DNA of 32,372 bases, taken from the NCBI GenBank assembly GCA_026392845.1, contig JAPLBJ010000053.1, positions 1 through 32,372 of the forward strand. The letters run 5' to 3'. Source of the DNA: Actinomycetota bacterium (GTDB lineage: Bacteria > Actinomycetota > Actinomycetes > Nanopelagicales > Nanopelagicaceae). Shown here in pieces: positions 15,235 to 32,372 of this stretch. The position numbers and the translations under genes are program-made. Below the pieces are notes generated by a model that was not told the DNA's origin, did no database searches, and was given only the letters and a program-made list of their open reading frames with translations. Numbering within the stretch: the first letter of the stretch is position 1; each line of letters opens with the position of its first letter.

Positions 15235-16123
15235 CACCAAGATAAGTCATAACAATTCCACTAATTAGATATGCACTGACGTGAACCCCATTGGTTGGAT
15301 ATAAAATATCGATTACAAGTGAACCAACTAATTGGCCGCCAACACTAAAGAGTGTGAAATTTAGTACACCAAGATGTTGAACAATTGTTGAAGAAAAAGC
15401 AATATAAATAACTCATATTACCCCACCTGTATAAATCCACCATGGACCACTTGGCAACGGAACAAGTTCTATTCTTTTAGCAAGAATCATGACAATGAGC
15501 AGCACTACTAGAAATGTTGAACCCATAATGAAATTAAGCAGAGATGTTGTAAAACTCTGATGTGAATATTCATTTATTTCACCGTTCATTGCTCTTTGAA
15601 TTCCACCAAGTGCGCCTGTCAAAACACCAAGAAATACTGCAAATTTTGAAAGATTGCTCGCATCAAGTCGATCAAAAACCGAGAGCACTACAGCTAAAAC
15701 AGTAATTCCCGCTGCCGCTACTCGACGCTTTGAAAGTAATTTTTTCCCTCCCCCAGTAAGGCCGATGCGATCCACAATTAATGAAGCGGTTGCTTGGCCT
15801 GCGATTGATGCAACTGAAAATATTGCAACACCAATCATTGGAACTATGTGAGTTTGTACAGCAACCCAGGTTCCCCCGAGCATTCCTGCAAAGAGTTTCC
15901 AGCGAGCGATCTTTTTCTCTTGTACCGCTCCTCGTAAATTGCGAATTCCCTCTTTGATAGAAGGATTAAGAAGAGAAATGAAGACAATGATGATTAGTCC
16001 TGAACCAAAAGAGACTAGGGCGGCCTCTAATCCATTGTTGAGTTGATGTGAAAGTTCTCCATTTGCGCGTGCTTGGAGCGCAATTAGTACACCTGATAGC
16101 GCCGCCAGAAAATCAAGACGCAT
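15179..16123 (-). pseudogene. DMT-2 (YdcZ/DUF606-type) transporter interrupted by an in-frame TGA
   Basis: Membrane transporter made of two homologous five-helix halves. From the ATG at 16123 the frame runs 236 residues to a TGA at 15413-15415. The same frame continues without a shift for 77 more codons (VIYIAFSSTIVQHLGVLNF, then GGQLVGSLVIDIL) to a TAA at 15179, giving about 314 residues, the family's normal length. Aligning the second half with the first (LGGTWVAV...IAGQATASLIVD) places the TGA at a glycine, so one G-to-T change in GGA explains it. Without the tail it lacks the last helices. It may be a recent pseudogene, a population variant or a sequence error. The start overlaps the ABC-F stop (TAATG). 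Confidence 0.8.
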
Positions 16124-18336
16124 TAAGCGTGTGTACCGTGGAACTCTCGCTTATCTGCGATCCAATCCATAAGTGCAAAGAGCACTCCGGATGCTACGAA
16201 TGTAATGTGAATAACGATTCTCCATTTAGTGCCTCCGCCAACATGGTCTTGGCCGGAAAGTTCAATAAAGTCTTTAAGGAGTTCGATTACAGATATTGCA
16301 ACGAGTGAGCCGATAAGTTTAATTTTTAGACCGCTGAAATCGATAGTACCCATCCAGTGTGGTCGATCTTTTGATTCCGTTGCAACATCGATTCGAGATA
16401 CAAAGTTTTCATATCCGGCAAAGATAACCATCAGAATCAAGTTCGCAAGAAGTGTTAGGTCGAGAAGTGCAAGCAAATCAAGTGTAAAAGATTGAGGTGT
16501 TGCTTTATCAATCTTTTCTGCCAGATGAATAAATTCGATTATAAAACGATAACCAAGCAGTGCTAATGCTCCGACAAGGCCCAAATACAAAGGCGCTAAT
16601 AAGAAGCGAGAGCGGAAGAGGATATGAGCTTTTTCCAGTTGCTTTGTAACTTCAAGTAGGCGGCCTGAATCTGAGCCAGCCTCCTGTTGCTCTTTCTCTA
16701 AAGTGGCGATGAGCTCTTTTAGTTTTTCAATCTGGCGCTCTAATCTGACAATATCTTTTTTGATCTGGCGCTGTTCTGCAGCATTCGATTGAGTTTTCTT
16801 GGGTGTGTTAGATGCAATCGCAGCATTGATAGATACTTCACGTTGCTCTAAGTACTCATCGACTCCACGAGGAAGATCTCGAACTTCCTTATCTCCAAGT
16901 AAACCCACAAAGCGATCGCAAACTCTTTCTAAAAAGAATCTATCGTGAGAAATCACAAGAAGTGTTCCGGTGTAACTATCAAGCAAATCTTCTAGTTCGT
17001 TTAGAGTTTCAATATCGAAATCATTCGTAGGTTCATCCAGTAATAAAACATTGGGGCTATCCATCAACAAACGCGTGAGTTGCAGGCGTCGTCTTTCTCC
17101 GCCCGATAAGTCACCGACTGGTGTCCACTGAGAATCGCGATCAAAGCCAAGTCTTTCGCACAATTGCGAGGCAGAAAGTGATTTGCCTTTACCTAATTCA
17201 ATATGGTTTGCAACCTTTTCAACTGCTTCAAGTACGCGCCACGTTGGGTCCAGCTCAGTGAGGTGTTGAGTAAGAAATGCAGATGCAACTGTTATTCCTG
17301 TAACTAATTTGCCACCACTTGGTTTTAGCTCGCCAGCTAATGTACGCATCAGAGTTGTTTTACCCGCGCCATTTACGCCAACAATTCCTATTCGATCACC
17401 TGGACCGACATTCCACGTTAGGTTATCTATGAGTTCTTTATCGCCAATTTTTACTTGCATATGGTGTGCTTCATACACAGTATTTCCTAAACGATTGTGA
17501 GCAAATTTCAGTAGCTCAGTTTTATCACGAGGGGCTGGTTCGGCTGAAATAAGTTCATTAGCGGCATCTATGCGAAATTTTGGTTTTGTTGTTCGTGCAG
17601 GTGCTCCACGTCGTAACCATGCCAATTCTTTTCGAATTAATGCATTACGTCGACCATCAAGTACTGAAGCCTGGCGGGATCTTTCTGCTTTTGCTAATAC
17701 ATAGGCAGAATATCCACCGTCGTATTCTTCAATTTTCCCACCAACTACTTCCCACGTTCTATCTGTGACTGCATCTAGGAACCAACGATCGTGAGTTACA
17801 ACCGCAACGGCTAAGTTTTTTCGATTATTCAGATGTTGTGCAAGCCATGCAACGCCTTCAACATCTAAGTGGTTCGTTGGTTCATCAAGCAAAATTAAGT
17901 CAAGGTTTGCAATAAGTAACTTTGCAAGACCTACGCGTCTTTTCTCTCCACCTGATAATGATTCAAATTTTCTTTCAAATAAATGATCATCAAATCCGCC
18001 AAAGAGACCAGTAAAGACTTCACGAATACCTGCATCGCTTGCCCATTCATGAGTTGCTGTATCGCCAAGAACAACATCGCGAACAGTACTTTCAGGATCT
18101 GCGTAATCAATCTGTGAAAGAATTCCAATATGCGCGGAGTTTGATCGTGTAACACGTCCACTATCAGGTGATTCAATCCCAGCGATGACTTTCATAAGTG
18201 TGCTTTTGCCGCAACCATTTCGGCCAACAATGCCGATTCGATCGCCTTCAGATATACCAATAGAGACGCTATTTAATAGGGCTTTGATATCAAAGGCCTT
18301 AGAGACCTCTTCAATGTTTACAACGTTGCGCGCCAC
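16123..18336 (-). CDS. ABC-F ATPase (Uup-like) fused to a UPF0114/YqhA-type membrane domain
   Basis: Residues 1-~566 are a complete two-cassette ABC-F protein. Walker A motifs are GRNGCGKST (38-46) and GVNGAGKTT, signatures LSGGEKRR and LSGGERRR, Walker B LILLDEPTNHLD and VLLLDEPTNDFD. There is an inter-domain linker with LRRGAPARTTKPK, and a coiled-coil tail (~520-566) like Uup. ABC-F proteins act in the cytosol on ribosomes or DNA. From about residue 567 the frame runs without a stop into a ~170-residue UPF0114/YqhA domain (SRFLLAPLYLGL, LLALLDLTLLANLILMVIFAGYENFVS, HITFVASGVLFALMDW) with about four membrane spans. No ATG, GTG or TTG lies at the junction, so the membrane part is expressible only as a fusion. 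Starts with GTG without a clear ribosome site. Confidence 0.9.
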   Translation of the reverse strand: MARNVVNIEEVSKAFDIKALLNSVSIGISEGDRIGIVGRNGCGKSTLMKVIAGIESPDSGRVTRSNSAHIGILSQIDYADPESTVRDVVLGDTATHEWASDAGIREVFTGLFGGFDDHLFERKFESLSGGEKRRVGLAKLLIANLDLILLDEPTNHLDVEGVAWLAQHLNNRKNLAVAVVTHDRWFLDAVTDRTWEVVGGKIEEYDGGYSAYVLAKAERSRQASVLDGRRNALIRKELAWLRRGAPARTTKPKFRIDAANELISAEPAPRDKTELLKFAHNRLGNTVYEAHHMQVKIGDKELIDNLTWNVGPGDRIGIVGVNGAGKTTLMRTLAGELKPSGGKLVTGITVASAFLTQHLTELDPTWRVLEAVEKVANHIELGKGKSLSASQLCERLGFDRDSQWTPVGDLSGGERRRLQLTRLLMDSPNVLLLDEPTNDFDIETLNELEDLLDSYTGTLLVISHDRFFLERVCDRFVGLLGDKEVRDLPRGVDEYLEQREVSINAAIASNTPKKTQSNAAEQRQIKKDIVRLERQIEKLKELIATLEKEQQEAGSDSGRLLEVTKQLEKAHILFRSRFLLAPLYLGLVGALALLGYRFIIEFIHLAEKIDKATPQSFTLDLLALLDLTLLANLILMVIFAGYENFVSRIDVATESKDRPHWMGTIDFSGLKIKLIGSLVAISVIELLKDFIELSGQDHVGGGTKWRIVIHITFVASGVLFALMDWIADKREFHGTHA

Positions 18337-18360: not shown

Positions 18361-19635
18361 ATGGCTATCACTGACCGCGAATACGCACTTGAACTCGATC
18401 GAAACGACCCATTAGCTCATTTTCGTTCCCGTTTTGTAATTACTGACCCAGATATGTGTTATCTCGATGGAAATTCGCTAGGCCGTTTACCTCATTCAAC
18501 AGTTATTGCTATCAATGAATATATGACTCAAGAGTGGGGTCGTGAAGTTGTAACGGGTTGGAGTCATTGGGTCGATGAAGCGCAGCCAACTGGAGACCTT
18601 ATTGGTCGATCCGCACTCGGTGCTGGCCCCGGACAAATGCTTGCTTGCGATACAACATCTGTAAATTTCTATCAGTTGGCACTCGCTGCAATTAATGCTC
18701 GCCCAGGTCGCAAAACAATTATTACTGATGCGGCTAATTTTCCAACTGATCGATACATTCTTGAAGGGATTGCAAAGCAACTAGGTTTGAATCTGGTAAT
18801 AATTGATAACGAAAGTGCGGGCTCAACAGAGAATGAACGTATAACACCTAAGATTCTAGAAAAATATCTCAGCGATGATGTTGCTCTAGTGACTCTAGAA
18901 GTTATTCAATATAGATCAGGTGCACGAAACGATATAAAGTCATTGACTGATCTCACTAGAAAATATGGCGCACTTCTGCTGTGGGATGCGAGCCATGCGG
19001 TTGGCGCTATCGAAATGAATTTGGACGCAAATGGCGCGGACCTTGTTGTTGGTTGCACATATAAATACGGGAACTCAGGTCCTGGTTCGCCAGCATGGTT
19101 ATACGTAAGCAAAAGAATTCAAAAAGAATTACAAGTTCCAATCCAAGGTTGGTTTTCACAAGGTGATCAATTTGGAATGGGGCCTGTCTTTGAACGCGCA
19201 GAAGGTATCCGTGGCTACCAAATTGCAAGCCCATCCCTCATGGGACTTCGTTGCGTAAAGAGTGCTTTCGAAATAATTGAAGAGGCAGGTATTGATGCAA
19301 TCGCCTCTAAGGCAGCTATTGGTACTCAAATGATGATTGATTTATATGACGCTTGGCTCGCAGATCTTGGAATCACACTGCTGACTTCACGAAATGCAAA
19401 AGAGCGTGGTGGGCACATCACTCTTGGTCATCCCGATGCAGCCCGAATTTGCATTGCACTTCGCCAATTCGCAAATGTGATTCCTGATTACAGAACTCCA
19501 AATTCGATTCGTTTGGCAATTTCTCCTCTACCAACTTCTTACGTAGAAGTATGGGATGGGTTCCAAAGAATTAGAGATTTAGTGGCATCGCGCCAGTATG
19601 AGAAGGTTGAAGAAGGCGGTTCTCGAGTCACATGA
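18361..19635 (+). CDS. kynU: Kynureninase
   Basis: PLP enzyme that cleaves kynurenine to anthranilate and alanine. The 424 residues match the family length. Features are the N-terminal CYLDGNSLGRLP, the phosphate-binding region CDTTSVNFYQL, the cofactor aspartate/histidine in LLWDASHAVGAI, the PLP lysine in GCTYKYGNSGPG, and the Trp-containing GWFSQGDQFGMGP. Its TGA overlaps the kynA ATG by four bases. With kynA it turns tryptophan into anthranilate, provided a formamidase gene exists elsewhere; none is in this window. Confidence 0.95.
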   Translation: MAITDREYALELDRNDPLAHFRSRFVITDPDMCYLDGNSLGRLPHSTVIAINEYMTQEWGREVVTGWSHWVDEAQPTGDLIGRSALGAGPGQMLACDTTSVNFYQLALAAINARPGRKTIITDAANFPTDRYILEGIAKQLGLNLVIIDNESAGSTENERITPKILEKYLSDDVALVTLEVIQYRSGARNDIKSLTDLTRKYGALLLWDASHAVGAIEMNLDANGADLVVGCTYKYGNSGPGSPAWLYVSKRIQKELQVPIQGWFSQGDQFGMGPVFERAEGIRGYQIASPSLMGLRCVKSAFEIIEEAGIDAIASKAAIGTQMMIDLYDAWLADLGITLLTSRNAKERGGHITLGHPDAARICIALRQFANVIPDYRTPNSIRLAISPLPTSYVEVWDGFQRIRDLVASRQYEKVEEGGSRVT

Positions 19636-20429
19636 GCGAAGAGAATTTTGATTCTGCCCTAACGTATACATCGTATTTAGCTGTTGATGAACTCCTCAAA
19701 TTGCAACGTCCCCTTTCAGTTGGACCAGAGCATGATGAAATGCTCTTTATCATTATTCACCAAACGTATGAATTGTGGTTCAAAGAACTTATTCATGAAT
19801 TTCAAGCAGCACAAAAATCTTTAGAGGCTGGTGATACTCACTACTCGCTTTCACTTTTGGGTCGGATTCGAACAATTATGAAAGTATGTGTCGCACAAAT
19901 TGATATTTTAGAAACAATGACACCTCTGCAATTCAACTCATTTCGAAGTTATTTATCCTCATCAAGTGGCTTTCAATCCGCGCAATTTAGAAAAGTGGAA
20001 GCAATTCTCGGGCGACGCGATAGCAAAATGGCAGGCCACTTACCTGTTGATATTCAAGCTGAGATTGCAGTAATAACTAAAGGAAATTCTTTATGGGATT
20101 CCTTACTTGTTTATCTAAATCAACAAGGTCATCCGATACCAAGCGATGTACTCGAGCGCGATAAGAGCAAAGCCTATGAAACTAATGCGGGTGTACAGGA
20201 TGTGTTATTAGAAATACATAGGAATAGTCCCGATAGCGCAATGGTGTGTGAGCGACTTGTAGATATTGACGAAGGAATTCAAGAATGGCGCTATCGCCAT
20301 GTGAAAATGGTAGAGCGCACAATTGGACACAAAATGGGTTCAGGCGGTTCTAGTGGTACTAGTTATTTACAGAGCACGCTTTTCAATCCTGTATTTGTGG
20401 ATCTTTGGGAAATCAGATCTCGCTTTTAG
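19632..20429 (+). CDS. kynA: Tryptophan 2,3-dioxygenase
   Basis: Heme enzyme opening the indole ring of tryptophan to N-formylkynurenine. The 265 residues have the family pattern: LTYTSYLAVDELL, the substrate/heme region MLFIIIHQTYELWFKELIHE, ETMTPLQFNSFR and SSGFQSAQFRKVE, then the C-terminal heme-ligand histidine in WRYRHVKMVERTIG and GSGGSSGTSYL. It is translationally coupled to kynU. Its stop overlaps the stop of the convergent nitroreductase by three bases, leaving no space for a terminator. Confidence 0.96.
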   Translation: MSEENFDSALTYTSYLAVDELLKLQRPLSVGPEHDEMLFIIIHQTYELWFKELIHEFQAAQKSLEAGDTHYSLSLLGRIRTIMKVCVAQIDILETMTPLQFNSFRSYLSSSSGFQSAQFRKVEAILGRRDSKMAGHLPVDIQAEIAVITKGNSLWDSLLVYLNQQGHPIPSDVLERDKSKAYETNAGVQDVLLEIHRNSPDSAMVCERLVDIDEGIQEWRYRHVKMVERTIGHKMGSGGSSGTSYLQSTLFNPVFVDLWEIRSRF

Positions 20430-23106: not shown

Positions 23107-23943
23107 TTAGGAAAGGGCGAGTAATTGCAGTAGTCGACCGCATTCATCGGCCACTTTATTTCTTGCACTCCTTACGTACTTACGAGGATCCACAATCTTT
23201 GAATCAGAGTTTAGGATTTTACGAATTTCATCTGTAAATAGATGATTGAGGTGTGTTGCAATGTTTATCTTACGCATTCCAGCTTTTACTGCCCTTTGTA
23301 AATCTTCGTCATTTACTCCAGATGACCCATGTAGGACTAATGGGACGCTTACGGTCTTAGCAATATGAGAAATTAATTCGAAATCCAAAGTTGCGTCTCG
23401 AGTTGTCATTGCATGTGAACTGCCAACCGCTACAGCTAATAGGTCTACCCCGGTTGCTTCAACAAATGCTTGTGCTTCGGTCGGATTAGTTCGAACTCCA
23501 GGTGCATGAACTCCATCCTTGCCTCCTACTTCACCAAGTTCTACCTCAATTGTTGCTCCATATTGTCTGCACAGTTCGGCCATACGAGCACTTGCTTGCA
23601 CATTGCTGGAATATTCCAACTTTGAACCATCAAACATAACGCTGTCGAACCCTAAATCAAGTGCTTCCTGGATTAGCAATTCACTCTCTGCATGATCTAA
23701 ATGTAAGGAAACATTTACTAACGAAGCTTGCGCAATTGCTTTAGATGCAAGTGCAATTGGCTTAAGGGCACCGTGGTAATCAACGCAATTCTGACTAATT
23801 TGTAATACGACTGGCAGTTTTACTCTTTCGGCCCCGGCAACAATTGCCTCTGCATGCTCTAGAAGAATTACATTGAATGCCCCTACTGCAGCAGCATTTT
23901 TTAGCTCGCCTGTAATTATTTTGAGTGGGTTGAGTTGAGTCAT
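23107..23943 (-). CDS. Class II ketose-bisphosphate aldolase (tagatose/fructose-bisphosphate type)
   Basis: Zinc-dependent aldolase giving dihydroxyacetone phosphate and an aldehyde. The 278 residues have the normal class II pattern: AFNVILLEHAEAIV, the zinc ligands in LHLDHAES, the catalytic region SVMFDGSKLEYSSNV, the zinc glutamate stretch EVELGEVGGKDG, the GSSHAM histidine region, LHGSSGV and KINIATHLN. The size and its place in the amino-sugar locus suggest a GatY/KbaY-like tagatose-1,6-bisphosphate aldolase, but fructose-bisphosphate is possible. No tagatose-6-phosphate kinase is seen. The ATG lies one base past the DeoR stop, so translation is probably coupled. Confidence 0.85.
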   Translation of the reverse strand: MTQLNPLKIITGELKNAAAVGAFNVILLEHAEAIVAGAERVKLPVVLQISQNCVDYHGALKPIALASKAIAQASLVNVSLHLDHAESELLIQEALDLGFDSVMFDGSKLEYSSNVQASARMAELCRQYGATIEVELGEVGGKDGVHAPGVRTNPTEAQAFVEATGVDLLAVAVGSSHAMTTRDATLDFELISHIAKTVSVPLVLHGSSGVNDEDLQRAVKAGMRKINIATHLNHLFTDEIRKILNSDSKIVDPRKYVRSARNKVADECGRLLQLLALS

Positions 23944-23944
23944 A

Positions 23945-24739
23945 TTAGGCGATTATAATTTCTATTCCAAGTTGACGTAATTTCTTTAGCATTTCTTCAT
24001 CTGTTCCAGAATCAGTAATAATTGTATCAATTTGATCAGCAGAACAAATTGTGGCAAATGCGGTACGAGTAAATTTTGAGCTATCTGCAATAACTACAAC
24101 TTTTTTTGATCGCTGAACCATTTGGCGATTTACTTTTGCTTCATCTTCATGGTTAGCGGCCGCCCCCATAATTGGATTGAAAGCGCTCACACCAAGAAAT
24201 GTAATATCAATATTTACTTCCTTGAGGACTTCTTCTGCAAATGGGCCCGTCAATTCATATGATTGAGGTCGAGCTACGCCGCCAGTAACGACAATCTTTA
24301 TTTGGTGGCGAACAGTCAACTCTGCTGCAATATTTACGGCATTTGTTACAACCGTTAGCGCTGGTGAATGTTCTTGGGAATCACTTGGAGCAAACTCAGT
24401 TCTTGCAGCGAGCGCTCGTGCTACTTCAGTAGATGTTGTGCCGCCATTGATTCCAATTATTTGATGTCGTGTAACCATTTCAGCCGCAACTTTTGCAATT
24501 CTTTGTTTTACCTTGTCATCTTTTGCCACCTTGTAAGTGAGCGGCAATCCAAGAGAACTCCCTGTTGCAACAGCCCCACCGTGTGTACGTGTGAGTAATT
24601 GGCGCTTTGCTAAAACATCAAAATCACGTCTGATCGTCGCTGCTGATACTCCAAGTATTCGAGATGCATCATCGACTTCAACGCTTCCTTTTTCTACGAC
24701 AAGTTCGAGGATGCTGCTGAGGCGTTGTTGGCGATTCAT
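23945..24739 (-). CDS. DeoR-family transcriptional regulator of the amino-sugar locus
   Basis: 264 residues. The N-terminal winged helix (1-~60) has the DeoR signature: RQQRLSSILELVVEKGSVEVDDASRILGVSAATIRRDFDVL, then RTHGGAV. The C-terminal sugar-phosphate-sensing domain has IGINGGTTSTEVARAL, VVTNAVNIAAEL, VVTGGVARPQSYELTGPFAEEVL and VVIADSSKF. A ribosome site AGGAG lies six bases before the ATG. It probably represses its own operon and the divergent SIS/ROK/deacetylase operon, responding to a phosphorylated sugar. The shared 119-base intergenic region holds two inverted repeats suited as operators. Confidence 0.93.
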   Translation of the reverse strand: MNRQQRLSSILELVVEKGSVEVDDASRILGVSAATIRRDFDVLAKRQLLTRTHGGAVATGSSLGLPLTYKVAKDDKVKQRIAKVAAEMVTRHQIIGINGGTTSTEVARALAARTEFAPSDSQEHSPALTVVTNAVNIAAELTVRHQIKIVVTGGVARPQSYELTGPFAEEVLKEVNIDITFLGVSAFNPIMGAAANHEDEAKVNRQMVQRSKKVVVIADSSKFTRTAFATICSADQIDTIITDSGTDEEMLKKLRQLGIEIIIA

Positions 24740-24763
24740 GCATTTCTCCTCTCAAATGAATAG

Positions 24764-24779
24764 ATATGCGCAAGCATAT
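24764..24779. promoter_or_regulatory. Inverted repeat ATATGC-GCAA-GCATAT, operator candidate
   Basis: Perfect 6-bp arms around a 4-base spacer, lying in the leader region of the DeoR gene, about 25 bases before its ATG. A 15-of-16 copy occurs inside the ROK kinase gene (26328-26343). Binding by the adjacent DeoR regulator is inference. Confidence 0.45.
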
Positions 24780-24809
24780 GATTGTTTATGCTCACTTTAC
24801 TATACAAGT

Positions 24810-24850
24810 AGTCAAAATTTTTTGACTCTTTCTAATCACTCGCCTATGGT
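24810..24850 (+). promoter_or_regulatory. agaS-operon promoter with operator repeat over the -35 box
   Basis: A perfect inverted repeat AGTCAAAATTTTTTGACT (24810-24827, 7-bp arms, 4-base spacer) has its right arm forming the -35 TTGACT (24822-24827). Exactly 17 bp on is TATGGT (24845-24850), eight bases before the ATG at 24859, so the transcript is probably leaderless. A protein bound to the repeat would block the promoter. This is the best promoter in the window. Confidence 0.65.
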
Positions 24851-24858
24851 TTCTCTTT

Positions 24859-25749
24859 ATGAGTACCAAAATTGCATGCGAATATGCAGATGCAGAGATA
24901 TCGTCACAACCATCTATCTGGGCACAAGTTGCTGATTTCGCACCAAGTTCACTCCATCTTCTTCCTGAAAAGGGCGAGAAGGTTGCAGTAGTTGGTTGTG
25001 GAAGTTCTTGGTTTATGTCGATGGCATATGCATCACTTCGTGAAGCTGCTGGCCATGGTGAAACTGATGTCTATGTTGGATCAGAAATGAATTACGAGCG
25101 CAAGTACGACAAAATCGTTTCAATTTCGCGCTCAGGTACAACAACTGAAGTTGTAAAGATGTTAGAAAAAACAAAAATTCCTTCAGTTATGTTGACGTCA
25201 GTTCACGGCTCTCCCGTAACCAAACATGCAACACATTCTATTGTTATGCCTTTCGCTGATGAAAAATCAGTGCTACAAACTCGTTGGGCAACAGCTGCTC
25301 TTGGTTTATTGCGAATGCATTTAGGTTTTGATTTGCGATCGATTATTAAAGATGCACAAGAGGCGCTCACATGTGACCTTGGAGATTTAGTAAATGTTGA
25401 GCAAATTACTTTCCTTGGCCGTGGATGGACAATCGGCCTTGCGCAAGAAGCTGCACTTAAGACGCGTGAATCTTCACAATTCTGGGCAGAGGCATATCCT
25501 GCACTTGATTACCGCCATGGTCCCCTTTCAATTTCAGAGCCAGGACGTGCAGTGTGGGCATTCGGTGAGATTCCAGATGATTTGATTCGAGATATTAAAA
25601 AGACTGGCGCACTATTTGAAAGTAGCACGCTTGACCCAATGGCTCATTTAATCAAGGCGCACCGTGTCGCTATCGCTATCGCGAAGAAGCGTGGTTTAGA
25701 TGCCGATAATCCTCGAGGTCTGTCACGATCCATCATTTTAGATAAGTGA
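24859..25749 (+). CDS. AgaS-like SIS-domain sugar isomerase/deaminase
   Basis: 296 residues with two SIS domains. The first has VVGCGSSWFMSMAYAS and the phosphosugar loop SISRSGTTTEVVKML; the second has FLGRGWTIGLAQEAALKTRESSQFWAEAY and the YRHGPLS motif. AgaS-type proteins deaminate galactosamine-6-phosphate (or glucosamine-6-phosphate) to ketose-6-phosphate and ammonia. It heads the divergent operon, probably from a leaderless transcript, and no classical NagB is in the window, so it is the likely deaminase. It is much shorter than GlmS and lacks the glutaminase domain. Confidence 0.85.
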   Translation: MSTKIACEYADAEISSQPSIWAQVADFAPSSLHLLPEKGEKVAVVGCGSSWFMSMAYASLREAAGHGETDVYVGSEMNYERKYDKIVSISRSGTTTEVVKMLEKTKIPSVMLTSVHGSPVTKHATHSIVMPFADEKSVLQTRWATAALGLLRMHLGFDLRSIIKDAQEALTCDLGDLVNVEQITFLGRGWTIGLAQEAALKTRESSQFWAEAYPALDYRHGPLSISEPGRAVWAFGEIPDDLIRDIKKTGALFESSTLDPMAHLIKAHRVAIAIAKKRGLDADNPRGLSRSIILDK

Positions 25750-25764
25750 TTTAGACTAGCCAGC

Positions 25765-26670
25765 GTGAAACTTGTCGCGGCTATCGATGTTGGTGGGACA
25801 AGTATCAAGGGCGCCTTGGTGGATCCTGATCTACACATCATTGCAACTGCTAATGCTCCAACTCCACAAAATGATGTAGATGGCAGCAAGACTGTAAAAG
25901 TAATTAGTGAATTACTTTCTAAGTTGGCATCTCCCGGTGAAATCAAAGCTGTTGGATTAGCAGTACCCGGTGCTCTCGATGAGACTAATGGAATTTCAAG
26001 ATGGTCAGGAAATTTAGGGTGGAAGAATCTTCCGATTCGTGACTTACTTGCTCGTGAAATAAAGATTCCTGTTGCATTCGGTCACGATGTTCGTACTGGT
26101 GCACTTGCTGAACTCCGAAATGGTGCTGCAAAAAGCCTAAATAATGCAATCTTTATCCCTATTGGTACCGGAATTGCAGCCGCACTGATTATCGATGGTC
26201 AAATTAGATCATCCAATGGTTTTGCTGGAGAAATTGGTCATGTCAATGTTGGTGGGGAATTCAATTGTGTTTGCGGCAAAAAAGGATGTTTGGAAGCAGC
26301 CGCTTCTGCCCTTTCTATTACGAATGCATATGCGCAAGCATCTGGGAAAACAGGAACTAGTAGTGAAGAGATTGCAACACTTTCACAAAATGGTGATGCG
26401 ATTGCTCAAAAAATATGGGAAAACGCTATGGCTTCTATTGCCACTGCATGCCAAATGCTTATAACTGTTCTGGCCCCTGAAGTAATTATTTTTGGTGGTG
26501 GCTTATCGCAATCAGGGAATTTGCTAATTGATCCAATTGCTAAATCTCTGGGTGAGTCACTTACATTTCAAAAAGTCCCACAATTAGTTATTGCTCACTA
26601 CGGCGCTCAAGCTGGAACTATTGGTTGCGCAATGTTGGCACTTGATTTACTTCCTAATGGAGGTAACTAA
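25765..26670 (+). CDS. ROK-family sugar kinase
   Basis: 301 residues of a single-domain ROK kinase, without a DNA-binding domain. Features are the ATP-phosphate loop AAIDVGGTSIKGALVD, the catalytic aspartate in VAFGHDVRTGALAE, the loop IPIGTGIAAALIIDG, and the zinc site GHVNVGG...CVCGKKGCLE. It most likely phosphorylates N-acetylgalactosamine or N-acetylglucosamine before deacetylation, judging from its neighbours; glucose is possible. GTG start at 25765 without a ribosome site. A TAGACT (25752-25757) seven bases before it could be another leaderless -10, with a poor -35. Confidence 0.88.
   Translation: MKLVAAIDVGGTSIKGALVDPDLHIIATANAPTPQNDVDGSKTVKVISELLSKLASPGEIKAVGLAVPGALDETNGISRWSGNLGWKNLPIRDLLAREIKIPVAFGHDVRTGALAELRNGAAKSLNNAIFIPIGTGIAAALIIDGQIRSSNGFAGEIGHVNVGGEFNCVCGKKGCLEAAASALSITNAYAQASGKTGTSSEEIATLSQNGDAIAQKIWENAMASIATACQMLITVLAPEVIIFGGGLSQSGNLLIDPIAKSLGESLTFQKVPQLVIAHYGAQAGTIGCAMLALDLLPNGGN
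26328..26343. repeat. Second copy of the intergenic inverted-repeat element inside the ROK gene
   Basis: ATATGCGCAAGCATCT matches the intergenic ATATGCGCAAGCATAT at 15 of 16 bases. It encodes part of NAYAQAS here, so coding constraint may explain some of it. A match this long is not expected by chance in a 32-kb window. Confidence 0.35.
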
Positions 26671-26671
26671 G

Positions 26672-27766
26672 ATGATTATCCAAGCCTCCTCTGGTGTTGT
26701 AGAAGGCGCCTTAAGAAAAAATTTTTGGTTAGAGATATCAAATAACACGATTTCTCATATCGAAAATGGGGCAAATGAAAAAGCTGACAAAGTAATTGAA
26801 GGCATCCTTATTCCTGGTTTTGTCGATATTCATTGCCATGGTGGCGGTGGTGCATACTTTTCATCCCCTGACCCAGAAGATATTGATCGAGTAATTGATG
26901 TTCATGCCCAACATGGGACAACATCAATGCTTGCAAGCTTGGTGAGTGAACCAATTGAAAAACTAATTGAACAAATCAAAAGAATTAATCCATATGTAGG
27001 AACTAGCGCGATAAAGGGAATTCACCTGGAAGGTCCTTATCTTTCACATGCTCGCTGTGGTGCGCATGATCCATCACTATTGCGCACCCCATCAGTAAAA
27101 GAACTACAACGATTACTCGATGCCGGGCAAGGCAATATTTCAATGATTACTCTGGCTCCCGAGTTAGAAGGGGCACTGGATGCAATTGATTTCCTTGTTG
27201 AAGAAGGCGTAGTTGTTGCACTTGGCCACACTGAAGCAACTGCTCATATTGCACTTGAAGCCATCGATTACGGCGCAACAATTATTACTCACTTCACAAA
27301 TGGAATGCCAAAACTTGGAAATGATGCAGGAACAATTTCTGAAGTAGCACTGGCCGATGATCGGTTATCTCTTGAATTGATTTTGGATGGAGCACATATA
27401 AAGAAAGAAGACACTGAAGAGATTCTTGCCTTGGCATCCCATAGATCTATTCTTGTTACAGATGCAATCTCTGCTGCGGGAAGTATTGATGGACAATACA
27501 AAATCGGTGAACTCGATGTTGATGTGTCTAAGGGAATAGCAAGGCTTGTTAGCAATAAGTCTCTGGCAGGAAGTACCTTGACTATGGATCGCGCATTTAT
27601 GAAGCTACATAAGGATTTCAAGGTTTCCATCGAGGATGCTGTTAATTCTTCTTCCGCGCTTCCTGCTGGAGAAATTGGTATGGGCAATGTCGGCGAGATT
27701 GCACTTGGAATGAGTGCAGATTTGTTAGAACTCACACAAACAGGAGAGGTAGTTATAATTCACTGA
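26672..27766 (+). CDS. nagA: N-acetylhexosamine-6-phosphate deacetylase
   Basis: Removes acetate from GlcNAc-6-P or GalNAc-6-P, giving the substrate of the SIS deaminase. From the ATG at 26672 (GGAGG eight bases upstream, one base after the ROK stop) it has 364 residues. Amidohydrolase motifs are VDIHCHGGGG (54 and 56 histidines), the metal glutamate in GIHLEGPYLS, HARCGAH, the metal histidines in LGHTEA and HFTNGMPKLG (more often HLFNAM), LILDGAHI and the catalytic aspartate in LVTDAISAAG. An in-frame ATG at 26657 would overlap the ROK end and is less likely. GalNAc versus GlcNAc specificity cannot be read from the sequence. Confidence 0.92.
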   Translation: MIIQASSGVVEGALRKNFWLEISNNTISHIENGANEKADKVIEGILIPGFVDIHCHGGGGAYFSSPDPEDIDRVIDVHAQHGTTSMLASLVSEPIEKLIEQIKRINPYVGTSAIKGIHLEGPYLSHARCGAHDPSLLRTPSVKELQRLLDAGQGNISMITLAPELEGALDAIDFLVEEGVVVALGHTEATAHIALEAIDYGATIITHFTNGMPKLGNDAGTISEVALADDRLSLELILDGAHIKKEDTEEILALASHRSILVTDAISAAGSIDGQYKIGELDVDVSKGIARLVSNKSLAGSTLTMDRAFMKLHKDFKVSIEDAVNSSSALPAGEIGMGNVGEIALGMSADLLELTQTGEVVIIH

Positions 27767-28182
27767 TGACACTAGAAAATAATCGCAAGGCCGCGTATGA
27801 CTTTTTTGATCAAATTTGGAACAAGAGAGATGAGAGTGCAATTGATCGCTTTATCGCTCTCGATGCTGCAGGAAATGACCCGAAATTCGGTGTTGGGCGT
27901 GAAAGTTTTAGAGAACAATGGAAAAAGTGGCAAGCAGCTTTTCCTGATCTTCACTTTGATGTTCAAGAAGTAATTTGTGAAGGCAATCGCGTTGTCTCCC
28001 GTTGGCATCTGACTGGAACACACACTGGCGCAGAATTTCTTGGTCAGCCACCAACTGGAAATAAGGTCTCAGTAGATGGTGTCAGTATCGACACAATCAA
28101 AGACGGAATTGTCCTAGATGGATTTGATGCGTGGGATTCTCTTGGATTTAGACAACAACTTGGAATTCTTCCTAAAGATTAG
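27766..28182 (+). CDS. SnoaL-like / ester-cyclase-family protein
   Basis: 138 residues of the small NTF2-like alpha+beta fold. Diagnostic are the start NRKAAYDFFDQIWNKRDE, GRESFREQWKKWQAAFPDLHFDVQEVICEGNRVVSRWHLTGTH, then LGQPPTGNKVSVDGVSI. Relatives include polyketide cyclases and many proteins of unknown role. The ATG shares its A with the TGA of nagA, so it belongs to the amino-sugar operon, but a function there is not obvious. Its last 69 bases overlap the convergent EEP hydrolase gene. Confidence 0.8.
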   Translation: MTLENNRKAAYDFFDQIWNKRDESAIDRFIALDAAGNDPKFGVGRESFREQWKKWQAAFPDLHFDVQEVICEGNRVVSRWHLTGTHTGAEFLGQPPTGNKVSVDGVSIDTIKDGIVLDGFDAWDSLGFRQQLGILPKD

Positions 28183-31042: not shown

Positions 31043-31074
31043 GGATAAAACGCACTCAGGCTTATACGCCTGAG
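31043..31074 (-). terminator. Rho-independent terminator of the sugar ABC operon, stop codon in its loop
   Basis: On the minus strand CTCAGGC-GTATAA-GCCTGAG forms a perfect 7-bp stem with a 6-base loop (31055-31074). It is followed by TGCGTTTTATCC. The TAA stop of the ABC permease (31062-31064) lies in the loop. The T tract is short, so efficiency may be moderate. It separates the sugar operon from guaB1. Confidence 0.6.
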
Positions 31075-31883
31075 CCCGCAGTAATATTTTTGAGCCAGAA
31101 GCGTTGAAGGAAGAGGAAGGCGACCAAAATAGGCGCCATCGCAACAAAGGCTCCCATAATCAATCCAGGGCCTCCGTATGAAGTTCCAAGCCCTACAGAT
31201 AAAGGGAAAAGCTTTGCATCGTTGAACATAAGTAAAGGTAAATAAAAATTATTCCAGTTGGTTACCAAATTAAGTAGAAATACTGTCGCTAAGGCTGGGC
31301 GCAAAATAGGAATTGAAAGTTGGATAAAAATTCGGATCTCACTCGCTCGGTCAAGTCTTGCCGCTTGAATAAGTTCTTTCGGCAGGTTCTCTTTCGCGTA
31401 ATAAGCAATAATAAAAGTTCCGAGTGGATTAACTAATGAAGGCAGGATCACTGCCCATGGTGTATTGATTAGATTAAAATTCGCAAAATAAATAAACAGT
31501 GGGAGAACAAGAGTATTAGCTGGAACCATGACAAGAAATAGAATAAAAGCCTGTAGTTGACGCACGCCTTTAAATTCATAAGCGGCAATCGCAAAACCGG
31601 CCATGGCAGAACAAAGTAGCGCTCCGATGGCACCAGTTAGTGAGTAAAAAATAGTGTTTTTTAGCCAGACAACATAAATACCACCATTTGAATCTACTAA
31701 CCATTGGAGGTTTTGGAAGAAGCTAAATGAGTGACCAAACCATAATGAAAATGTGTTTCCGAAATCCTGAGGTGGTTTTGTAGAACTAACAAAAAGAAAC
31801 ATAATTGGAATCGCAAAATAGATTATTGATACAGCTAAAAATATATTGACTAACTTACTTTTAGGCTGAAGTACTTTTTGCAC
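31062..31883 (-). CDS. Carbohydrate ABC transporter permease (MalG-like)
   Basis: One of two membrane subunits of a CUT1-type sugar importer. The 273 residues have six membrane spans, starting at IFLAVSIIYFAIPIMFLF. The EAA-type loop is KELIQAARLDRASEIRIFIQLSIPILRPALA, which contacts the ATPase. FVMVPANTLVLPLFIYF and NLVTNWNNFYLPLLMF are typical MalG segments. GTG start at 31883 with no obvious ribosome site. It lies ten bases after the probable glycoside hydrolase on the same strand. The other permease, the binding protein and the ATPase must be outside the window. Substrate unknown; uptake of an oligosaccharide from the hydrolase is likely. Confidence 0.9.
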   Translation of the reverse strand: MQKVLQPKSKLVNIFLAVSIIYFAIPIMFLFVSSTKPPQDFGNTFSLWFGHSFSFFQNLQWLVDSNGGIYVVWLKNTIFYSLTGAIGALLCSAMAGFAIAAYEFKGVRQLQAFILFLVMVPANTLVLPLFIYFANFNLINTPWAVILPSLVNPLGTFIIAYYAKENLPKELIQAARLDRASEIRIFIQLSIPILRPALATVFLLNLVTNWNNFYLPLLMFNDAKLFPLSVGLGTSYGGPGLIMGAFVAMAPILVAFLFLQRFWLKNITAGSGV

Positions 31884-31892
31884 TTGCTTATC

Positions 31893-32372
31893 TTAGGCTT
31901 CGCAGATGTAAACCCGTGCACCAGTACCAGTATCTGGGATTATTGACTCAATTTTCTCGCGCCGCCCACGTAGTAATTCCTTTCCATTCATTGGATCAAT
32001 AACCCTGTAATTCAAAGGGATTCCATCACCTCGAACATCGAGTGGGCCGCCATTTTCTTGATAACCAATAAAGAGTCTGCCGTGAACAATAAGTCCTCGT
32101 GGTGAAATTGCTTCACTCCAGCTCGGTTGTATCTGCGCAATTGGTAATCCACGCAAAATTTTCCCGACTAAACCAACATATGTTGCTCCTTCAAAATCAA
32201 GTGCCTCGCGCCATCCACATCCTGGTGCAAGAAAAAAATCACTGTGTCCTAATTCATCTTTATGTAATCGCCATCCCCATAAACAGGCAGCGCCATAAAC
32301 AACTCCCATTGTTGAACCAGCACAGAGATTGCTCCACGCTTCATGTCCTTGCCACCATCCTGCAGATTTTCC
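31893..32372 (-). CDS. Probable glycoside hydrolase, C-terminal part (cut by window edge)
   Basis: The frame is open to base 32372, so about 159 C-terminal residues are seen. The portion GWWQGHEAWSNLCAGSTMG, then VVYGAACLWGW and LAPGCGWREALDFEGATYVGLV resembles the end of the TIM barrel in DUF4038/apiosidase-like glycoside hydrolases. It is followed by a small beta-rich domain (RLFIGYQENGGPLDVRG, YRVIDPMNGKELLRG). I call the family by resemblance only; a related unclassified hydrolase is possible. Placement just ahead of a sugar ABC permease supports carbohydrate use. No signal peptide can be judged since the start is missing. Confidence 0.5.
   Translation of the reverse strand, partial: GKSAGWWQGHEAWSNLCAGSTMGVVYGAACLWGWRLHKDELGHSDFFLAPGCGWREALDFEGATYVGLVGKILRGLPIAQIQPSWSEAISPRGLIVHGRLFIGYQENGGPLDVRGDGIPLNYRVIDPMNGKELLRGRREKIESIIPDTGTGARVYICEA

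Follow-up and report, generated by a model that had tools for sequence, protein, structure and literature searches.

The window analysed here, a 32,372-nucleotide stretch of DNA from a freshwater Planktophila-type bacterium of the order Nanopelagicales (genome 94.5% complete), probably carries a PTS-free operon pair for the catabolism of N-acetylgalactosamine (GalNAc). Most likely, this is a GalNAc route of known kind whose deaminase and aldolase come from uncharacterised families. PTS-free GalNAc use as such is already known, in Shewanella (PMC2996990).

Gene content and proposed route

The original prediction placed a DeoR regulator, an aldolase, a deaminase, a ROK kinase and a deacetylase in two divergent operons, and all of these genes were found at 23107-28182 (Table 1). 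The aldolase and DeoR genes form the unit on the reverse strand and the SIS, ROK, NagA-type and SnoaL-like genes the unit on the forward strand, in which the start of the SnoaL-like gene and the end of the deacetylase gene have one base in common. A search for shared 8-mers revealed no convincing operator palindrome in the divergent promoter.

Table 1. Features of the two divergent transcription units (positions in the window).
Feature	Coordinates	Strand	Basis
Class II aldolase, predicted tagatose-1,6-bisphosphate aldolase of its own clade	23107..23943	-	Pfam PF01116 (F_bP_aldolase), 273 bits
DeoR-family regulator, AgaR-like	23945..24739	-	Best NCBIfam model AgaR, 196 bits, under its cut-off of 260
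Divergent promoter region, 119-base gap between the two units	24740..24858	.	Space between ORFs
Short SIS-domain protein, predicted galactosamine-6-phosphate deaminase/isomerase	24859..25749	+	Pfam SIS, 39 bits
ROK-family sugar kinase, predicted N-acetylgalactosamine 6-kinase	25765..26670	+	Pfam ROK, 189 bits; operon context
NagA-type N-acetylhexosamine-6-phosphate deacetylase	26672..27766	+	NCBIfam nagA TIGR00221, 216 bits, under its cut-off of 225.65
SnoaL-like protein	27766..28182	+	Pfam SnoaL, 112 bits

In the route that we infer, GalNAc would be released from glycans by hexosaminidases and then imported. The ROK kinase would convert it to GalNAc-6-P, the NagA-type enzyme would cleave this to galactosamine-6-P and acetate, and the short SIS protein would deaminate and isomerise galactosamine-6-P to tagatose-6-P. 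After phosphorylation by a kinase to tagatose-1,6-bisphosphate, the class II aldolase would yield glycerone phosphate and glyceraldehyde-3-P. A likely repressor is encoded by the DeoR gene, whose product has its top score against AgaR.

The original prediction had named a kinase and a deacetylase of GlcNAc type as an argument against GalNAc. The best matches of the ROK kinase are glucokinases, and those of the deacetylase are named GlcNAc-6-P deacetylases, as is its closest solved chain (6fv3, 245 bits); the deacetylase names, however, do not discriminate GlcNAc from GalNAc.

Conservation within the order

Of the 201 genomes of the order, 27 encode an orthologue of the SIS protein, the genome under study included. 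Twenty-five are complete, and the 24 complete ones from other genomes share 66-97% identity with it; the remaining two are a partial copy in G164 (78%) and a 52-residue piece in G167 (54%). We then counted neighbouring genes in the 26 fetched loci of other genomes, several of which lie on short contigs. A ROK gene was present in 22, the aldolase in 21, the DeoR gene in 20 and a NagA-type gene in 19 of them, non-adjacent in one case (L038). The locus is thus a conserved block, and a chance grouping is excluded. Six of these loci also have the SnoaL-like gene, and 16 have an ABC transporter. For the solute-binding protein of the relatives, a search of five genomes detected no orthologue in the genome under study (best match 28% identity).

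Glycoside hydrolases are encoded in some of the fetched loci, GH20 in 6/26 and a GH4 in 5/26, and the best match of one GH4 copy (L050) is an alpha-galactosidase subfamily, under its cut-off. The genome under study has its own GH20 gene elsewhere, outside the locus. One further genome of the order (G017) encodes the aldolase without a detected SIS gene, but its contig stops inside transporter genes and is uninformative.

A NagB-II-like SIS locus, with a short NagA and a BadF-type kinase, also occurs in the order; no aldolase of the present kind was seen in three order loci with a BadF-type kinase (L059-L061). The two SIS types occur together in 3 of 201 genomes, as compared with 8.7 expected (P 0.007, ignoring kinship). 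This figure takes in 65 genomes with a NagB-II-like SIS at ≥45% identity, partial and degraded copies counted, and leaves out five at 34-37% identity (G051, G025, G105, G079, G118). Both types are intact in G065 alone; G167 is partial, and the NagB-II-like copy of G039 is degraded.

Aldolase and sugar-phosphate kinase

The aldolase is a member of the class II ketose-bisphosphate aldolases (TIGR00167, 222.3 bits, cut-off 215.6; PF01116, 273.3 bits), while its scores against the GatY, KbaY and TIGR01858 models (225, 152 and 196 bits) do not reach the cut-offs of 383, 542 and 444. The aldolase tree combined the window protein with seven of the other 21 proteins of the order and with 14 of the 19 from outside it. 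The original prediction took a grouping with fructose-bisphosphate enzymes as evidence against a GalNAc route; the aldolases form a clade of their own (support 100/99) that groups neither with these enzymes nor with KbaY/GatY. Taken over kinase, deacetylase and aldolase, the outcome of this check is mixed.

At the position of E. coli FbaA Asp288, which in a docking study touches the C4-OH of fructose-6-P (PMC5434028), Ala is found in all 21 order aldolases covering it, the present one counted. Outside the order the residue is Ala, Ser or Gly in 18/18 proteins covering it and Ala or Ser in 25/25 loci of a class-wide search. The residue is also Ala in KbaY and GatY of E. coli, whereas Asp is present in the fructose-bisphosphate aldolases E. 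coli FbaA, 2fjk, 1rv8 and the genome's own separate, ordinary Fba, and Asn in 3q94, 7ncc, 7nc7 and 4to8. By this small-residue criterion, which is our own and draws on few references, the aldolase resembles KbaY/GatY; two chains, 8q57 (named kbaY) and 8q58, run counter to it with Asp. Because of this residue, the operon context and the separate Fba, we set aside a plain fructose-bisphosphate aldolase.

Relatives outside the order carry the same SIS gene. We analyzed its neighbours in the best 80 of the SIS matches listed, which after removal of 18 from the order left 62 loci. The aldolase is present in 19 of these and absent from 43, of which 36 are from Micromonosporaceae. A Pfk gene (≥45 bits) accompanies the aldolase in 16 of the 19 loci (15 PfkB-type, one PfkA-type) and occurs in none of the 43 others; as the sample is weighted to Micromonospora, a Fisher value on it overstates independence. 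Among the 25 best aldolase loci outside the order in the class-wide search, 22 have a PfkB gene no more than about 1.5 kb away, usually in the gene order ROK-PfkB-aldolase. Of the five gene classes of the GalNAc pathway (6-kinase, deacetylase, deaminase, tagatose-6-P kinase, aldolase), four are present in the window and all five in L112, L115, L150 and L167, each of which carries DeoR, SIS, ROK, NagA, PfkB and aldolase genes. The association of SIS protein and aldolase with a sugar-phosphate kinase in other Actinomycetes therefore suggests a tagatose-6-phosphate route for GalNAc. For the nine of these 15 PfkBs that were scanned, the best model is the hexose kinase/1-PFK subfamily TIGR03168, above cut-off in 8/9, and none of the nine reaches the cut-off for tagatose-6-P kinase (best 181 bits vs 469).

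A dedicated kinase adjoins these genes in some related soil bacteria. None was found in the genome under study, where a LacC-like query from L115 gave no match. The same query matched in 24 of 201 order genomes, eight of which carry this SIS (G043, G059, G065, G075, G088, G108, G164, G165; 20-61 bits); in G088 and G164 the surroundings, judged from ORF starts, read as fructose-PTS-type operons. Given the lack of a LacC-like match in the genome under study, we propose that the glycolytic PFK of the order would phosphorylate tagatose-6-P in place of a dedicated enzyme, and the genome's own PFK is the likely stand-in. One outside locus, L164, has the order ROK-SIS-aldolase-PFK; its PFK is PfkA-type and 55-58% identical to seven compared PFKs of the order, the present one among them, and its aldolase is the sister of the order's aldolases with modest support (86/78).

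SIS protein and choice of substrate

The original prediction called the deaminase AgaS-like, which proved too specific. The 296-residue protein scores 23.4 bits against the AgaS model TIGR02815 (cut-off 529.2; best stretch 64 residues), and by this score membership of AgaS is ruled out. It also falls below the cut-offs of the GlmD model NF041128 (91.9 vs 580 bits) and the NagB-II model NF046059 (35 vs 430 bits). Among solved chains, GlmD matches best (117 bits), against 42 and 37 bits for the AgaS-type 3odp and 3i0z; the putative deglycase 3eua scores 25.5 bits. By sequence, the protein belongs to a short clade nearer to GlmD and distinct from AgaS. This family is present at no fewer than 588 confirmed places among the matches listed, so that the special role in planktonic Actinobacteria suggested originally does not hold.

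The structural model (pLDDT 91.6) has the two-lobed amino-sugar-6-P deaminase/isomerase fold of the SIS superfamily. The best GlmD, AgaS-type, E. coli GlmS and NagB-II chains match it at Z 29.1-33.0 over 277-291 residues, with GlmD closest (Z 33.0), then 3odp (Z 30.7) and E. coli AgaS 3c3j (Z 29.1). GlmD ranks first by both Foldseek and VIA-align, yet many other families differ by no more than a few Z units, and the modelled fold is insufficient to decide the substrate.

The likeness to GlmD, a glucosamine-6-P deaminase, by sequence and fold raises the question of a GlcNAc route, in which the ROK and NagA-type enzymes would yield glucosamine-6-P, the SIS protein would form fructose-6-P in place of NagB, and the aldolase would be an accessory fructose-bisphosphate aldolase. 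A genome search for NagB, called for originally, gave no PF01182 match in this 94.5% complete genome, and the NagB model is above cut-off in none of the 201 order genomes. The near-exclusion of the NagB-II-like SIS, a pattern that could arise if both enzymes do the same job, and the glucose or GlcNAc names of the ROK and NagA matches point the same way. However, such a route leaves the presence of a dedicated PfkB and aldolase in the operon unexplained, and the aldolase does not have the Asp/Asn seen in the compared fructose-bisphosphate enzymes, in a genome that has its own Fba. Moreover, the GlmS Lys603 position, where GlmD and two aligned NagB-II-like proteins retain Lys, is Arg in all 29 aligned rows. 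We consider the GlcNAc route unlikely.

A dual-use locus, which overlaps with the GalNAc reading, is somewhat less improbable. Kinase, deacetylase and SIS protein would accept both sugars, with fructose-6-P entering glycolysis and tagatose-6-P the aldolase branch, which accommodates both the GlmD-like SIS protein and the aldolase link. GH20 enzymes cut both GlcNAc and GalNAc. GH3/GH20 are given for GalNAc release in PMC12118421, and the NagA of Streptomyces coelicolor also acts on ManNAc-6P and GalNAc-6P (PMC12680351, Table 1). On the other hand, G065 holds this locus together with an intact NagB-II-like locus, which suggests separate jobs.

Finally, SIS enzymes with other activities are known, such as NagS (PMC12680351), and 3eua is among the weak matches, but for the SIS protein a role as GlcNAc-6-P dehydratase of NagS type or as fructosamine-6-P deglycase, instead of as deaminase, is very improbable. 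NagS is described as MurQ-related and confined to Streptomycetaceae (PMC12680351), and going by this description the identity is unlikely; 3eua trails GlmD in sequence and fold (Z 21.5 vs 33.0), and the operon deacetylase provides the substrate for a deaminase.

Taken together, GalNAc is the best reading of the non-PTS GalNAc/GlcNAc route predicted originally, from which the AgaS identity and the special role in planktonic Actinobacteria have to be dropped. Pfk-aldolase association with its PfkB/ROK operon context, Asp288-position residue, separate Fba, GH20/GH4 context, L164 and AgaR score count for it. Against it stand the proximity to GlmD, the near-exclusion, the names of the ROK and NagA matches, the 43/62 outside loci without aldolase, PfkBs under the tagatose-6-P kinase cut-off, the Asp of 8q57/8q58, an aldolase outside the KbaY/GatY clade, and the lack of a detected LacC-like kinase or binding-protein orthologue in the genome.

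Implications and comparison with known systems

The evidence is about evenly balanced on a broader proposal, namely that Actinomycetes have a GalNAc pathway of their own, with galactosamine-6-P deaminases of a new short SIS family, different from AgaS, AgaI and NagB, and tagatose-bisphosphate aldolases of a third clade, missed by surveys that use AgaS as marker, and that streamlined freshwater Nanopelagicales lost the dedicated kinase, the glycolytic PFK taking over. In the single library searched, no title was found on such a route in Actinomycetes or on Planktophila with acetylgalactosamine. The acI group takes up GlcNAc. The acI lineage, which includes Planktophila, has been called the most abundant freshwater Actinobacteria (PMC5301498). 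Work on GlcNAc uptake in lakes is cited in an acI paper; a GalNAc route would, if true, be a second amino-sugar niche for acI. A published survey took AgaS (CDD cd05010, E below 1e-70) as the signature of GalNAc use and reported AgaS-based pathways in 76 gut genomes (PMC5583593), so the set of Actinomycetes scored as GalNAc users would change with a GalNAc deaminase that does not belong to the AgaS family.

The Shewanella GalNAc pathway (AgaP, AgaK, AgaAII, AgaS) is likewise PTS-free and uses a permease and a kinase, then a deacetylase and AgaS (PMC2996990, PMC12118421); here the kinase is of ROK type, a short SIS protein outside the AgaS family takes the place of AgaS, 16/26 order loci have an ABC transporter, and no LacC-like kinase was found in the genome. 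With the E. coli aga/kba cluster (AgaR, AgaS, KbaY, KbaZ, PTS), whose agaS encodes a galactosamine-6-P deaminase/isomerase (PMC3668189), the locus shares a DeoR-type regulator, a SIS deaminase and a class II aldolase, but neither a PTS nor a KbaZ gene is among its ORFs, and its SIS protein and aldolase belong to other clades. In the Shewanella NagK/NagB-II route for GlcNAc, NagB is likewise replaced by a SIS-type deaminase, although the NagB-II-like proteins (~350 aa) form a separate clade. Nearest to the SIS protein in sequence and fold is the SIS-type glucosamine-6-P deaminase GlmD of Pyrococcus (2cb0, 2dec), from which it differs in its score against the GlmD model (91.9/580 bits), its length (296 aa vs 325-333) and an Arg replacing the C-terminal Lys.

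Organization of the locus

The amino-sugar genes named in the original prediction are present between positions 23107 and 28182 of the window, which is the entire contig C55 of a genome of 1.36 Mb in 73 contigs (completeness 94.5%), and they are arranged as two divergent units. They probably encode a PTS-free route for N-acetylgalactosamine (GalNAc), in which a ROK kinase and a NagA-type deacetylase would be followed by the short SIS-domain protein (SIS protein), a tagatose-6-phosphate kinase and a class II aldolase.

Features of the window and of its genome
Feature	Position (nt)	Strand	Basis or remark
Unit with aldolase and DeoR genes		-	ORFs and family matches
Unit with SIS protein, ROK kinase, NagA-type deacetylase and SnoaL-like genes		+	ORFs and family matches
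SnoaL-like gene	27766-28182	+	Overlaps the deacetylase gene end by one base
Single 737-aa ORF	16123-18336	-	ABC-F ATPase joined to a small protein
Overlapping gene pair	18361-20429	+	Presumably kynureninase and tryptophan 2,3-dioxygenase
Apiosidase-like gene, then sugar permease gene	31062-32372	-	Apiosidase-like gene truncated at the contig end; permease binding-protein-dependent
PFK gene, contig C26	2052-2936		Sole PFK match in the genome; in-frame TAA

Several flanking genes recur near the SIS loci of relatives. The apparent kynureninase/dioxygenase pair is also found in L033 and L034, and the apiosidase-like and permease genes in L033. In L033 the two parts of the 737-aa ORF, which we take to be an ABC-F protein and a UPF0114/YqhA-type membrane protein, are separate ORFs of 590 aa (97.9% identity to residues 1-577) and 178 aa (98.2% identity); the joining is either a real fusion or an assembly error.

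Conservation within the order

An orthologue of the SIS protein was found in 27 of the 201 genomes of the Nanopelagicales, own genome counted (25 complete, 2 partial). Among the 26 fetched loci of the order, window excluded and some on contigs too short for a complete gene set, the ROK gene is present in 22, the aldolase gene in 21, the DeoR gene in 20 and the NagA-type gene in 19, once non-adjacent. An ABC solute-binding gene (16/26), GH20 (6/26), SnoaL (6/26) and GH4 (5/26) also occur. Most of these loci carry ABC transporter genes between DeoR and SIS. The loci of the window, G148 and G054 are among those lacking them, and searching the rest of the own genome for the relatives' solute-binding protein gave no orthologue. 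Five loci (L048, L049, L050, L052 and L055) carry GH4 and a second ABC transporter set between SIS and ROK. The GH4 of L050 matches best an alpha-galactosidase subfamily (349 bits, under the cut-off of 486), and these enzymes possibly release alpha-GalNAc.

Identity of the SIS protein and the aldolase

The original prediction had placed AgaS where NagB would be expected, and this assignment was not borne out by the models, as the SIS protein scores below the cut-offs of AgaS, GlmD and NagB-II. A profile built from 29 relatives matched GlmD best (117 bits; AgaS-type chains 42 and 37 bits). The predicted structure (pLDDT 91.6) likewise matched GlmD (Z 33.0), followed by the AgaS-type chain 3odp (30.7), E. 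coli GlmS (30.3), and E. coli AgaS and NagB-II (both 29.1). The position of GlmS Lys603 is occupied by Arg in 29/29 relatives, by Gln in E. coli AgaS and by Lys in GlmD and two aligned NagB-II-like proteins. The modelled fold suggests an amino-sugar-6-phosphate deaminase/isomerase and would fit glucosamine and galactosamine alike, giving no choice between the two.

The likeness to GlmD speaks against the GalNAc reading, as it would also suit a glucosamine-6-phosphate deaminase yielding fructose-6-phosphate in a locus for GlcNAc only. The distribution of related proteins would also fit two versions of one such deaminase: the SIS protein and a NagB-II-like SIS (at least 45% identity; 65/201 genomes, partial copies counted) occur together in 3/201 genomes versus 8.7 expected, and both are intact in G065 only. 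The NagB equivalog model exceeded its cut-off in 0/201 genomes of the order; a weaker NagB-like match (60-124 bits) was seen in 21/201. We consider the GlcNAc-only reading unlikely overall; a dual-sugar version overlaps with the GalNAc reading.

The aldolase obtains comparable scores from models of fructose- and of tagatose-bisphosphate aldolases. Clustering with fructose-bisphosphate enzymes, which would have spoken against a GalNAc route, was not observed; the tree separates it, in a clade of its own (100/99), from KbaY/GatY as well as from FbaA and the short fructose-bisphosphate aldolases. In docking, Asp288 of E. coli FbaA contacts the C4 hydroxyl of fructose-6-phosphate (PMC5434028). Ala occupies this position in the window aldolase and likewise in KbaY and GatY, and the relatives covering the site have Ala, Ser or Gly (21/21 in the order, 18/18 and 25/25 outside), versus Asp or Asn in the fructose-bisphosphate aldolases compared. 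This residue is suggestive rather than proof, because chains 8q57 (named kbaY) and 8q58 carry Asp. The own genome has a separate ordinary Fba.

Association with sugar-phosphate kinases

The GalNAc route would require a tagatose-6-phosphate kinase. At least 588 relatives of the SIS protein were confirmed in named genome contigs, and the best 80 were kept, 18 in the order and 62 outside (Nocardioides, Microbacterium, Jiangella, Kribbella, Micromonospora and others). Within this set, the flanking sequence retrieved (at most 9 kb) contains the aldolase in 19/62 outside loci, and a Pfk gene accompanies it in 16 of the 19 (15 PfkB, 1 PfkA-type) versus 0/43 loci lacking the aldolase. The three aldolase-bearing loci without a Pfk gene are L109, L123 and, on a short contig, L113. 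The 62 loci are not independent, since 36 of the 43 aldolase-less loci belong to Micromonosporaceae while the aldolase-bearing ones are scattered over the SIS tree. In a class-wide search, PfkB lies within about 1.5 kb of the aldolase in 22 of the best 25 outside-order aldolase loci. Of the 15 PfkBs, the nine scanned match best a hexose kinase/1-PFK subfamily (over cut-off in 8/9) and also match tagatose-6-phosphate kinase models, under cut-off.

The PfkB members of the own genome lie on contigs C13, C22, C29 and C65 and, from sequence starts and neighbours, look like a ribokinase, an adenosine kinase, a fructokinase and one further member. Five operon PfkBs as tblastn queries gave no match to them, nor did a LacC-like query match the own genome. 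Glycolytic PFK is the likely stand-in kinase in the order. Of 18 genomes searched, all but G054 contain a PFK, which in G083 consists of two pieces at contig ends. The in-frame TAA of the own PFK, absent from the other matches listed, reflects either assembly error or decay. In the Propionibacteriaceae locus L164 a PfkA-type kinase adjoins SIS and aldolase and shares 55-58% identity with seven order PFKs compared. E. coli PfkB has been named as a tagatose-6-phosphate kinase (PMC11907403).

Comparison with known pathways

GalNAc pathways of this type, the PTS-free form included, are already described (PMC2996990). As far as the literature searched shows, the predicted role of the SIS and aldolase clades in GalNAc use, the place of both clades in Actinomycetes and the Nanopelagicales version without a dedicated kinase are new.
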